Below are positions 1,440 to 51,877 of a stretch of 64,000 bases of DNA, piece after piece; position 1 is the stretch's first letter; every line of letters begins with the position of its first letter. The DNA comes from Bacteroidales bacterium (lineage in GTDB: Bacteria > Bacteroidota > Bacteroidia > Bacteroidales > JAFGUD01): assembly GCA_016938685.1 (NCBI GenBank), contig JAFGUD010000470.1, positions 1 to 64,000 of the forward strand. The letters are read 5' to 3'. The notes beneath the pieces were generated by a model. It saw only the letters and a list, made by a program, of their open reading frames with translations, searched no databases and was not told the DNA's origin. Both the position numbers and the translations under genes were made by a program.

Positions 1440-2035
1440 AAATGGAGTAAACCTGCCTGACCATGTTAGTTTTACGTTTTTATTCTGAAAAAGAATAACT
1501 TTCTTTTTGGTTTCTGCATTCAGAAAACGAGACAAGGGTATTTTTTGGTTATGCGATTTTAATCGCTCTGGTTAAGTTGCTTTAGCAACATTTTTTCGCA
1601 ACAAAGGATTCAGAACTGAGGTAAGTAAATTTGCATGACCATGTTCGTTTTAGTTGTTTAATTCTGAAAAAGAACAACTTTCTTTAATGGTTTCTGCATT
1701 CAGAAAACGAGACATGGGTGTTTTTTGGTTATGCGATTTTAATCGCTCTGGTTAAGTTGCTTTAGCAACATTTTTTCGCAACAAAGGATTCAGAACCGAG
1801 GTAAGTAAATTTGCATGACCATGTTCGTTTTAGTTGTTTAATTCTGAAAAAGAACAACTTTCTTTAATGGTTTCTGCAGTCAGAAAACGAGTCAAGGGTA
1901 TTTTTTGGTTATGCGATTTTAATCGCTTTGGTTAAGTTGCTTTAGCAACAGTTTTCAGCAACTGAAGTTGCGGAACCGAAGCAAGTAAACTTGCATGAAC
2001 ATGTCTGTTTTAGTTGTTTTTCCCAGTAACTTATC
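1440..2035. repeat. 180-bp tandem repeat array with mini-hairpins (3.3 copies)
   Basis: Three copies begin near 1441, 1621 and 1801, with a partial fourth from 1981; copies 2 and 3 differ at only a few bases. Each unit holds GCGAT-TTTA-ATCGC and GTTGC-TTTA-GCAAC (5-bp stems, same loop) and a TTCTGAA...TTCAGAA pair about 35 bases apart. At the unit junction, copy 4 has GCAAG-TAAA-CTTGC, while copies 2 and 3 keep this stem with G-U pairs. All six frames are closed. The remainder to 2179 shows nothing further recognisable. Function unknown. Confidence 0.85.
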
Positions 2036-4026: not shown

Positions 4027-4251
4027 ATGGTTAATTATCATGAAATAATAACAATAGAACAGGGTAAAAGGAGTGGTAAATCATGTGTTAGAGGACTTCG
4101 AATTACTGTTTATGATGTTTTATCTTGGTTAGCTTCAGGGATGACTCATGATGAAATAATTGAGGATTTTCCGGAACTAACAAAAGAAGATATTTTAGCA
4201 TGTTTGGCTTATGCTGCCGATAAAGAGAAAAAAACCATTTTTGTTGCCTGA
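4027..4251 (+). CDS. DUF433 family protein, probable antitoxin
   Basis: 74 residues. The segment GKRSGKSCVRGLRITVYDVLSW followed by a helical part with the acidic motif DEIIEDFPELTKEDILACLAYA is the DUF433 pattern, a winged-helix domain common as the VapB-like partner of PIN-like DUF5615 proteins. The stop codon lies 7 bp before the DUF5615 start, so the two are one operon behind the TATCTTTG box at 4004. The likely role is DNA-binding autoregulation and neutralising the partner; that comes from gene pairing and is not shown here. Confidence 0.85.
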   Translation: MVNYHEIITIEQGKRSGKSCVRGLRITVYDVLSWLASGMTHDEIIEDFPELTKEDILACLAYAADKEKKTIFVA

Positions 4252-4258
4252 TTTTGCT

Positions 4259-4573
4259 ATGAAATTGCTATTTGATGAAAATATTTCTTTCCGAATTGTG
4301 AAAAAAATTTCTGATATTTTTCCTGATTCTGCTCATGTGAGTAAATTTGGGTTGCTAAAATCTAATGATTTGCAAATTTGGGATTTTGCAAAAAGAAACA
4401 GCTTTACAATTGTTACAAATGATTCCGATTTTAATGATATTTTGAGTATTTATAGTCATCTTCCAAAAGTGATTTGGTATAGAGGCGGAAACAAGACAAC
4501 CCAAATTCTTGCAGAAAAATTATTGGAGAATCAAGACGAAGTTATTAGCTTTTTACAAGATTTAGAAAAATGA
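4259..4573 (+). CDS. DUF5615 family PIN-like protein, probable toxin
   Basis: 104 residues from the ATG at 4259; a longer frame from 4211 overlaps the antitoxin gene and is unlikely. The N-terminus KLLFDENISFRIV holds the conserved DEN of DUF5615, and the middle has ATP-independent PIN-like features: a WDFAKRN block and TNDSDF near residues 62-70, probably part of the acidic metal site of a PIN-type ribonuclease. It follows the DUF433 gene directly. Assignment as a toxin is by family association. The end of the gene leads into a family A repeat. Confidence 0.82.
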   Translation: MKLLFDENISFRIVKKISDIFPDSAHVSKFGLLKSNDLQIWDFAKRNSFTIVTNDSDFNDILSIYSHLPKVIWYRGGNKTTQILAEKLLENQDEVISFLQDLEK

Positions 4574-6548: not shown

Positions 6549-6637
6549 AAAGATATTGATTTTAATCATTAATAAATACGGATAAAAATTACATCTTTGG
6601 ATTTTAAAAGTGTTCTGCAACATTGTGGACATTTAAT

Positions 6638-6676
6638 TAACTTTTCAACTTTTAACTTTAAAACTTTCAACTAAGT
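6638..6676 (+). repeat. family A repeat before glpD
   Basis: AACTTTTCAACTTTTAACTTTAAAACTTTCAACTAAG ends 3 bp before the ATG at 6677. It is the same word family as at 1-124. Confidence 0.7.
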
Positions 6677-12138: not shown

Positions 12139-12452
12139 AAATAAAACCGAAAAGTCGCCAAAAAAAATAGCGTCTCAGCGTCTTAGCGGTGAAAACAATT
12201 AAACAGCAAAGTCACAAAGTCGTCAAAAAAATTGTGTCTCTGCGTCTTAGCGGTGAAAACAATTAAACCGCAAAGTCACAAAGTCGTCAAAAAATAGCGT
12301 CTGAGCGTCTTAGCGGTGAAAACAATTAAACCGTAAAGTCACAAAGTCGTCAAAAAATAGCGTCTGAGCGTCTTAGCGGTGAAAACAATTAAACCGCAAA
12401 GTCACAAAGTCGCAAAAAAAAATAGCGTCTCAGCGCCTTATCGGTGAAAAAA
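12139..12452. repeat. five-copy ACCGCAAAGTC...GTCTTAGCGGTGAAAAC repeat (family D)
   Basis: Five copies of a unit of about 65-68 bp. Each runs ACCGCAAAGTCACAAAGTCGTCAAAAAATAG-CGTCTNAGCGTCTTAGCGGTGAAAACAATTAA, with small changes. The ends pair (ACCGCAAAG against CTTAGCGGT, one mismatch), so each unit can fold into a long-loop hairpin. The final unit runs into the hemW start: its GGTGAAAAAA lies directly before ATGGGAATT. No gene fits in this stretch. Confidence 0.88.
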
Positions 12453-13583
12453 ATGGGAATTTATATACACATACCGTTTTGCTCTTCAAAGTGTCGATAC
12501 TGCGATTTTTTTTCAAGAGTTGTTAATAATGATGAAGTTAAGGCTAATTATGTTAACGCTTTGTGCAAAGAAATTGAACTTCAAAAAAAATATCTTGGAA
12601 CGAATAAAATCAGCACAATTTATTTAGGCGGAGGAACTCCTACTGTGTTGAAACCCAGTCAATTGAATAGAATATTTGAAGCTGTGTTTAAAGTCTTTGA
12701 TTTACAGAAAGATAATGAAATTACCATAGAAGTCAATCCAGAAGATTTAACTTTACAATATTTACAAGACCTGAAAAATTATACTCCAATAAACAGATTA
12801 AGCATTGGCTTACAGTCATTTTCTGATGAAGAATTAAGTTTTATGAACCGTAAACATTCTGTTGAAACATCTCAAAAAGCAATCGAAAATGCTCAAAAAA
12901 CAGGATTTTATAATATTACCGGAGATTTAATTTTCGGACTGCCGAGTCAAACTTTAGAGCAGTGGAATTATAATTTAAAAAAGTTTATTGAACTTAATAT
13001 TCCGCATCTTTCAGCTTACAGTTTAACGATAGAAGAGGGGACAGTCTTCGGACTTTGGAAAAAGAAAAAACGTATTACTGAAATTGACGAGGAATTAAGC
13101 TTAAAAATGTATCAAAAACTTATTGAAAAATCTGAGGAAAATAATTTTCAGCATTACGAAATTTCAAATTTTGCAAAAGAAGGTTTTATCGCCAGGCATA
13201 ATTTTTCATATTGGACAGGTGAAAAATATTTGGGAATTGGAGCTTCGGCGCATTCATTTGATGGAAAAACAAGACAGTGGAATGTTGCAAATATCGAGAA
13301 TTATATTAAATCAATTCAACAAAATTTAATTCCTGCTGAAAAGGAAACTTTAACAGAAGCAGACAAATTTAACGAGTTCATTTTAACTGGATTAAGAACG
13401 TATTTAGGCGTAAAAATCAGTAGGTTAGAAGATGAATTTGCCGATTTTTATAGACAAATCAGGAAAAATATTGAAGAATTAGAAAATAAAGGTTTTGTGG
13501 AAAAAAAAGATAATCATTTTGTATTAACAAAAAACGGAAAGTTTGTTTCGGATGCGATAATGTCTGAATTGATGGTTGTATAG
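12453..13583 (+). CDS. hemW: radical SAM family heme chaperone HemW
   Basis: 376 residues from ATG 12453. The cluster motif is CSSKCRYCDF near residues 11-20, preceded by the typical GIYIHIPF. The block TIYLGGGTPT near 55, the PEDLT block near 98 and the GDLIFGLPSQT segment are the HemN/HemW pattern. HemW lacks coproporphyrinogen oxidase activity in characterised cases and delivers heme. An in-frame GTG at 12444 would add three residues, but it belongs to the repeat unit (GGTGAAAA), so ATG is preferred. A C-terminal winged-helix HemN_C domain is present (ILTGLRTYLGVKISRLE). Confidence 0.92.
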   Translation: MGIYIHIPFCSSKCRYCDFFSRVVNNDEVKANYVNALCKEIELQKKYLGTNKISTIYLGGGTPTVLKPSQLNRIFEAVFKVFDLQKDNEITIEVNPEDLTLQYLQDLKNYTPINRLSIGLQSFSDEELSFMNRKHSVETSQKAIENAQKTGFYNITGDLIFGLPSQTLEQWNYNLKKFIELNIPHLSAYSLTIEEGTVFGLWKKKKRITEIDEELSLKMYQKLIEKSEENNFQHYEISNFAKEGFIARHNFSYWTGEKYLGIGASAHSFDGKTRQWNVANIENYIKSIQQNLIPAEKETLTEADKFNEFILTGLRTYLGVKISRLEDEFADFYRQIRKNIEELENKGFVEKKDNHFVLTKNGKFVSDAIMSELMVV

Positions 13584-51465: not shown

Positions 51466-51862
51466 GGGGCTGATTTTGGTTTCGACAGCAGATAGGTTAA
51501 CATGTAAGCATGCCGGGCTAGGTAACAGATCCCGTTATCCTTAGTTACAAAAACATCAAATGGCGAAAATACTGAATTCGCTCTTGCTGCGTAATTGAAT
51601 TATAGTAAATTACACTTAATCTAGCGCAACGCTGGAGCAAGACATCTCGCTAACAGGTTGTTCCTGTTTCCTTTTAGCAATAGAGGTGTCACAATTACAG
51701 GATAGTTGATACAGGTCTCGATGTGTTGGCGAAAATTAAGAGAATTGGCATTAAATAAGGCTGCTTTTTGTCGTGTTAATGCTGAAAACCAATAAAAAGA
51801 TAAGCATGTAGAAAGCATTTTAGTCGTTTGTTTGGACCGGGGTTCGATTCCCCGCAGCTCCA
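51466..51862 (+). ncRNA. ssrA: transfer-messenger RNA (tmRNA)
   Basis: The 5' end GGGGCTGATTTTGGTTTCGACAG and the 3' end GGTTCGATTCCCCGCAGCTCC-A are diagnostic of a one-piece tmRNA of about 397 nt; GGGGCTG pairs with CAGCTCC as the acceptor stem. The tag frame, near 51560-51596, ends AAT GGC GAA AAT ACT GAA TTC GCT CTT GCT GCG TAA, giving NGENTEFALAA, close to other Bacteroidota tags. It rescues stalled ribosomes with SmpB and marks the chain for proteolysis. The encoded 3' end lacks a full CCA (CACAAA follows). The next gene starts 15 bp downstream. Confidence 0.97.
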
Positions 51863-51877
51863 CAAATTTTTAGTATA

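Follow-up and report, generated by a model that had tools for sequence, protein, structure and literature searches.

A tandem hairpin array in a Bacteroidales genome very probably represents a REPIN cluster of a RAYT/REP system

Introduction

REP elements are small mobile DNA hairpins that are copied by domesticated transposases, the RAYTs. How these enzymes choose their hairpins has been established in vitro for three systems (PMC8266576). In the Marinomonas REP, a GTAG tag and two bases precede a perfect 5-bp stem that is closed by a TTTA loop. The Marinomonas TnpA-REP required loop bases 1, 2 and 4 (T, T and A) in vitro and left base 3 free, a swap of the stem was only moderately harmful, and the tag helped to choose the cut (PMC8266576). 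In Pseudomonas fluorescens SBW25, ordered clusters repeat a REPIN in tandem, together with its flanks (PMC3116915). For Bacteroidetes, RAYTs of subclass 2.6 have been described with atypical weak structures that lack GT[AG]G (PMC6006769), and another study assigns GTAG repeats to Chloroflexi and Planctomycetes and, in the available text, mentions Bacteroidetes under CGTC repeats only (PMC3733652). We found no description of TTNA-loop REPs in these phyla in the titles, abstract openings and text passages that were covered, which come mostly from outside the subscription journals.

Here, we describe a tandem array close to the beginning of a 64,000-nucleotide stretch of Bacteroidales DNA (hereafter, the window), which is the start of contig C230 in a 4.75-Mb draft genome of 555 contigs (G000). 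The array is very probably a tandem REPIN cluster of a single RAYT/REP system, that is, a set of single-stranded DNA (ssDNA) transposase substrates whose cognate enzyme is broken in this genome. It shares with REPtron Mb of Marinomonas sp. MWYL1, which has a group 3 TnpA-REP, the 5-bp perfect stem, the TTTA loop and a tetranucleotide tag placed two bases from the foot of the stem, and the TTNA loop requirement of that system equals the loop rule that we observe around 80 RAYT loci; the tag differs, being GTAG there and GGTT/GGTY here (PMC8266576). With the REPINs of SBW25 it has in common the inverted REP pair as the unit, the ordered tandem clusters with flanks and the position of clusters beside RAYTs, but each side of the pair is here a head-to-tail double hairpin, which gives four hairpins per unit (PMC3116915). 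The GTAG-1 REPs of Pseudomonas and Thauera likewise have two unpaired bases between tag and stem, and those of Thauera also have 5-bp stems and clustered elements, although the tag is GTAG (PMC3733652). RAYT subclass 2.6 (Bertels group 5) is similar in its occurrence in Bacteroidetes, its flanking structures without GT[AG]G, its weak stems and its copies in the host genome, whereas its motifs YIH[QN]NP and W-Q differ from the YIKMNP/YIKLNP and W-L found here, the REPs themselves being compared by description only (PMC6006769). What is new in the present variant is the GGTY tag, the four-hairpin unit, and the combination, over a wide range of RAYTs, of a TTNA loop with stems that are free to vary.

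Results

The array extends over 1446-2019 with a period of 180 bp, 3.2 copies and 91% matches (TRF), and two successive 180-bp copies are 98% identical (direct-repeat families). An earlier sequence-only reading of the window had noticed this repeat and had called it non-coding, and both observations hold, as there is no ORF of at least 50 aa between 1431 and 2179. On either side lies a plus-strand gene: upstream one for a CGGC-domain protein (981-1430; Pfam PF08821, E 6.2e-29), and downstream one for a 180-aa protein that has no Pfam match and belongs to no known family (2180-2722). Each 180-bp unit is composed of four hairpins and approximately 90 bp of carried flank. In each REP, a 5-bp stem with a TTTA or TTCA loop is preceded on its 5' side by a GGTT or GGTC tag and two further bases. 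Two REPs placed head to tail, 23 bp apart, form a 43-nt module that reads, in one orientation, GGTYAT, stem-TTYA-stem, TYNGGTTNN, stem-TTYA-stem, and a second module faces it in inverted orientation. Every unit therefore carries one plus-strand module (starting at 1547, 1727 and 1907) and one minus-strand module (1598, 1778 and 1958), with the tags on the outside. Two inverted REPs with outward tags, such as 1547-1589 (+) with 1598-1640 (-), are what constitutes a REPIN. The stems are also short and bear a tetranucleotide tag on the 5' side of their foot, as do the hairpins of REPtrons, in which the stem may be perfect or bulged.

The first two plus-strand modules (1547-1589 and 1727-1769; 65.5 bits each under our covariance model, R1) have the same sequence, GGTTAT-[GCGAT-TTTA-ATCGC]-TCTGGTTAA-[GTTGC-TTTA-GCAAC], and the third (1907-1949; 64.4 bits) is nearly identical. 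Among the minus-strand modules, the last alone is intact (1958-2000; GTTCAT-[GCAAG-TTTA-CTTGC]-TTCGGTTCC-[GCAAC-TTCA-GTTGC]; 63.8 bits and DNA fold), whereas those of copy 1 (1598-1640; 20.8 bits) and copy 2 (1778-1820; 24.8 bits and DNA fold) are decayed in the same way, with hairpin 3 broken and hairpin 4 paired by wobble on the plus strand only. At the left edge of the array, a minus-strand REP hairpin remnant with a broken stem can be read at 1444-1456. The spacer of the unit, its non-REP part, lies at 1641-1726 and is repeated at 1821-1906; the right end of the former, beside the tag, resembles the stretch that precedes a module on contig C14.

The hairpins GCGAT-TTTA-ATCGC (1553, 1733 and 1913) and GTTGC-TTTA-GCAAC (1576, 1756 and 1936) are present in all three copies with the same loop, as had been read from the sequence. 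The window contains eight perfect 5-bp hairpins with a TTYA loop, all eight inside the array. A first-order Markov null for 64 kb predicts 6.75 such hairpins of any composition but only 1.2 (sd 0.9) with at least two G/C in the stem, and all eight observed hairpins qualify for the latter class. When the three copies are compared column by column, hairpins 1 and 2 are strictly kept (0/14 varying columns each), while hairpins 3 and 4 (5/14 each) vary more than the rest of the unit (19/122). The notion that the stems are kept within the array thus applies to the first two hairpins and not to the other two. The six hairpins of the inverted halves comprise two that are intact, two that are wobble-paired on one strand only and two that are broken.

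The sequence-only reading had further proposed a third stem, kept by wobble pairs in two of the copies, and had taken this as a sign of maintained pairing. The wobble form GTAAG-TAAA-TTTGC (G-U) does exist, at 1621 and 1801; the perfect stem GCAAG-TAAA-CTTGC occurs a single time (1981-1994), its left-edge counterpart at 1444-1456 being broken, and a fourth hairpin had been overlooked, namely GCAAC-TGAA-GTTGC at 1958-1971, whose equivalent place in the other two copies reads GCAACAAAGGATTC and cannot pair. The argument for maintained pairing fails, because only one strand pairs: both wobble changes are C to T on the plus strand and leave two A.C mismatches on the tag-bearing strand. In addition, the wobble form occurs in tandem duplicates of identical sequence, and its two copies hence count as one event, not two. 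Folded as single-stranded DNA, the intact unit forms all four hairpins (z -3.02), and the decayed unit with its wobble copy loses hairpins 3 and 4 and forms hairpins 1 and 2 only (z -0.06).

The module is not unique to this array. At E <= 0.01, our covariance model matches 26 places in the genome, spread over 10 contigs. Of these places, 15 are rows from which the model was built; no such row comes from contigs C89, C547, C506 and C344, which the model itself picked out. The true copy number is probably higher than 26, with several copies lying at contig ends (C14, C38, C369 and C502). Many dispersed intergenic copies are another REPtron feature, and they are seen here in moderate number, with one cluster being intragenic. 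Altogether, we count 20 distinct module sequences across 32 places. In 18 distinct modules from this genome and a sister genome, 96.7% of the pair cells are standard, and sliding the pair partners by 1-3 columns lowers pairing to 24-50%. Six of the 10 pairs change on both sides, the cells with both sides changed number 36 (13.9 in shuffles), and the covariation score is 0.520 against a shuffled mean of 0.228, with 0 of 500 shuffles as high, although kinship among the sequences inflates the contrast with the shuffles, and in several stems the difference spans a whole block instead of single compensatory changes. The suggestion of selection on RNA structure is borne out in part: structure is conserved across the family, and the evidence points to ssDNA hairpins for a RAYT instead of RNA.

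Beyond this genome, one module recurs in tandem as a series of 49-bp copies in a same-genus genome (G002; 22 matches), a genome from another family of the order (G071) contains nine module matches, and a neighbour of the latter (G174) contains an inverted pair. A DNA search of 60 relatives matched two, G000 and G002. The covariance model had matches in 11 of 198 genomes of the order, of which we rely on G000, G001, G002, G071 and G174 only. Weak matches in G170 and G017 look like chance on inspection and were set aside, and those in G008, G038, G054 and G139 are weak as well. A scan with Rfam identified no RNA family in the array, the sole match in the window being a tmRNA at 51466-51865.

One hairpin cluster lies within a gene. 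A 373-aa reverse transcriptase gene (G000:C506:715-1833; Pfam RVT_1, E 1.5e-26) carries the REP hairpin cluster in frame, which lengthens the protein by roughly 40-45 residues ahead of GLPIGNLTSQ; a relative (L193), with 48% identity over residues 6-169, lacks this addition. The relatives of this reverse transcriptase are only 30-48% identical, too distant for an empty site with exact ends, and we saw neither an empty site nor an excision of the module. Further palindromes, GTTCGGGATTTGCAATCCCGAAC and CTGACAGCTGTCAG, lie beside REP modules at G000:C369:1-250, and the first ~80 bases of that contig are common to the end of C38.

A search of the genome with the RAYT protein of G071 identified the cognate RAYT in two parts. 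The N-terminal part (C344:30346-30813; E 1.3e-47) contains one in-frame TAA and the HUH motif NHVH. The C-terminal part lies at a contig end (C41:12829-13023; E 4.0e-22) and matches NCBIfam NF047646 (REP-associated tyrosine transposase; E 3.5e-15) and TnpArep in PDB entry 4er8 (E 2.5e-6), with the RAYT fragments of this genome scoring below the NF047646 cut-off of 80 bits. Both contigs break off in the inverted 14-bp ends, CAGCAATTCCGCAA, of an insertion sequence (on C344 at 30806) that has duplicated 9 bp of its target, GTTCTCATG, from which we conclude that the cognate RAYT is interrupted. The insertion sequence is multi-copy, its 85-bp end recurring identically on C545 and C72. TTYA hairpins flank both RAYT parts, and on C344 hairpins of the family lie directly upstream.

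The RAYT of G071 (contig C433) is complete. It has 214 aa, is 52% identical to the N-terminal part described above, and exceeds the NF047646 cut-off (88.2 bits). It is flanked on both sides by tandem units of ~157 bp made of TTYA hairpins, in which GCAAC-TTCA-GTTGC and GCAGA-TTTA-TCTGC form inverted pairs. In a REPtron, cognate hairpins lie on either side of the Y1/HUH RAYT gene, and this arrangement is seen both here and in the C344/C41 halves. The best PDB match of its predicted structure (pLDDT 90) is 4er8, TnpA-REP bound to a REP hairpin (E 1.2e-7; TM 0.61 by target length, rmsd 4.2), and the RAYT tree joins it with the RAYT of our genome (SH-aLRT 100).

In their motifs, the RAYTs considered here (NHVH...W[LQ]...YI[KL]xNP) differ from the DH[LF]H...YI[VI]ANP given for group 3 (PMC6006769, Table 1). 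The pieces from our genome carry NHVH, W-L and YIKMNP; they have neither DH[LF]H nor YI[VI]ANP of group 3 (subclass 2.5), and of the subclass 2.6 motifs (NH[LIV]H, WQ and YIH[QN]NP), NHVH fits while W-L and YIKMNP do not. No cognate RAYT was detected at E <= 0.001 in the same-genus draft genomes G001 and G002. In our genome, a Pfam Y1_Tnp search found RAYT-like genes on C198 and C491 and missed the cognate RAYT, whose gene is in two pieces; the search with the G071 protein recovered, besides the cognate RAYT, RAYT-like genes on C114 and C455. None of these four RAYT-like genes has a TTYA array within 1.5 kb, and one AT-rich hairpin is present at C491 only. Long palindromes of their own lie near the genes on C198 (GAGACACGCCGCGGCGTGTCTC) and C455 (TGTCTGACA..TGTCAGACA), which suggests several REP systems in one genome.

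We then consider RAYT loci more broadly. The GTDB genome collection was scanned with five RAYTs of the clade, yielding 459 relatives of which the best 80 were kept; four of the five RAYTs in the query alignment (A3) already had TTYA hairpins, so that the protein sample leans to that clade, whereas the flanks are not affected. These best 80 of 459 come from Bacteroidota (many Saprospiraceae, Spirosoma and Larkinella), Chloroflexota (Anaerolineales), Planctomycetota, KSB1 and others, and are not independent, several being from one genome or from close kin. NF047646 was matched at E <= 0.001 by all 37 relatives scanned (37 of the 80 loci). Within 500 bp of the 80 RAYTs, we counted 217 TTYA hairpins in 77,107 bases, as compared to 25 in 204,084 bases beyond 1 kb, a 23-fold difference in density. 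At least two TTYA hairpins occurred near 44 of the 80 loci, as compared to 3 of the 60 loci that were long enough for a control window of equal size at a distance of 1-1.5 kb (the other 20 were too short), and 29 of the 80 loci had them on both sides. At 31 of the 80, no TTYA hairpin lay within 500 bp, and some of these loci carry other hairpins. The enrichment near RAYTs depended on the loop, being 23-fold for TTTA and for TTCA, 12-fold for TTAA (a palindromic loop, counted on both strands), 6-fold for TTGA and 3-fold for TCNA, and the TTYA hairpins of the RAYT loci had 38 different stems.

At these loci, the tag at positions -6 to -4 is dominated by G (0.87), T (0.76) and A (0.73). The tags of the relatives are mostly GTAN, with GTAG in 17 of 123 distinct hairpins, and the window's family, with mostly GGTT, GGTC or GGTA, falls outside the GTAG super-family as defined by a GTAG tag or a near variant of it. 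Bases -1/+1 can pair in 104 of the 123 distinct hairpins of the relatives and bases -2/+2 in 73, which places the tag at the hairpin foot in most of them; unlike most relatives, the window's family has two mostly unpaired bases between tag and stem. Complementarity between the tag and the 3' flank, as a guide to a target, showed no offset at p < 0.05 for two dinucleotide models. No fewer than 14 changes in the presence of TTYA hairpins are needed on the RAYT tree, which was built by a quick method with SH-aLRT support only, has unsettled deep branches and does not place the outgroup on one side; owing to these deep branches and the outgroup placement, we make no claim that TTYA hairpins are a trait of a single clade. 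At one locus (L103; G335:C231), the RAYT lies in frame inside a 1496-aa open frame, other parts of which presumably belong to a DNA methyltransferase/restriction gene.

Discussion

The hairpins flank RAYTs in this and many other genomes, have the TTNA loop of a TnpA-REP substrate and come with half of the unit inverted, and we therefore consider them most likely to be ssDNA hairpins rather than an RNA element. Going by published work on TnpA-REP, a Y1/HUH nuclease would recognize the TTNA loop and the tag on a strand that is single-stranded, while tolerating differing stems. It would then cut beside the hairpin with the tag as guide, and the REP pair would be moved or amplified. The 180-bp tandem copies may have arisen secondarily, by slippage or recombination that duplicated one inserted unit together with its flank, as in the ordered REPIN clusters of Pseudomonas. 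Given that the cognate RAYT is broken by an internal TAA and an insertion sequence, the cluster is probably no longer mobilized and its inverted halves are probably decaying. The tag speaks against the REPIN reading, as it is GGTT/GGTY here and not GT[AG]G. Also counting against it are the lack of a cognate RAYT in the same-genus drafts G001 and G002, the 31 of 80 RAYT loci that have no TTYA hairpin nearby, the 14 or more changes of this trait on the RAYT tree, the failure to see an empty site or an excision, and the missing complementarity between tag and 3' flank.

The first alternative is that the hairpins act as RNA and end, stabilize or regulate the transcript of the upstream gene, which we regard as quite improbable. 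Hairpins in both orientations, beside RAYT genes and in frame within a reverse transcriptase gene do not fit such a role, even though this particular array lies between two plus-strand genes and has three terminator-like sites where 0.4 are expected, two of them GTTGCTTTAGCAAC followed by six T. Compared with its shuffles, the 596-nt RNA has the better fold (z -2.76), part of which is expected from repeats that pair with one another, but the stems are just 5 bp long, pairing survives the wobble changes on a single strand, two of the three copies have a broken hairpin 3, and no Rfam family matches. Since REPs elsewhere affect mRNA ends (PMC6006769), a secondary role of this kind is possible.

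It is about as improbable that a host factor (a nucleoid protein, gyrase or an IHF-like protein) binds the hairpins and that the link to RAYTs is historical. IHF, DNA polymerase I and gyrase bind E. coli REPs (PMC6006769), and the two plus-strand hairpins of each unit are fully conserved despite the broken cognate RAYT, but three recent tandem copies say little about conservation, and stems that share nothing sequence-specific beyond loop and tag suit a reader of ssDNA hairpins better than a duplex-binding protein. A passive satellite, amplified by chance and unlinked to any transposase, is the least credible explanation, since it fits only the 180-bp tandem step, with its 98% identical successive copies as in recent slippage and ~90 bp without REP features, and not the dispersal of the module over 10 contigs in other contexts, its position around the RAYT halves, or a layout of loop and tag that is common to REPs around RAYTs of other phyla.

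The reading as a REPIN cluster, by comparison, explains an otherwise puzzling repeat. We consider it evenly balanced whether its rule extends further, such that the RAYTs of a large clade spanning Bacteroidota, Chloroflexota and Planctomycetota read the TTNA loop of the REP and the tag, and not the stem; stems would then drift or be swapped freely, one enzyme could serve several stem types per genome, and composites of four different hairpins could move together. If this is true, the natural loops around such RAYTs would mirror in vivo the SELEX result for one Marinomonas enzyme. The loop constraint of one in-vitro system appears here as a 23-fold signal beside RAYTs of other phyla, with the stems free. 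This makes recognition by loop rather than by stem testable in cultured bacteria such as Spirosoma, and the simple signature of a tag, a 5-bp stem and TTNA can find REPs that searches by stem sequence would miss.

The window has other repeats and gene arrangements. At 12151-12454, a 63-bp unit that is unrelated to the REP module is repeated 4.8 times and contains AGCGTCTCAGCGTCTTAGCGGTG. An 18-bp microsatellite, ACTTTACAAACTTTAAGA, at 1-113 lies directly 5' of an ARMT1-like gene, and a similar 15-bp repeat is present at 6637-6672. At 4027-4573, genes for DUF433 and DUF5615 proteins overlap, a pairing that is typical of toxin-antitoxin loci.
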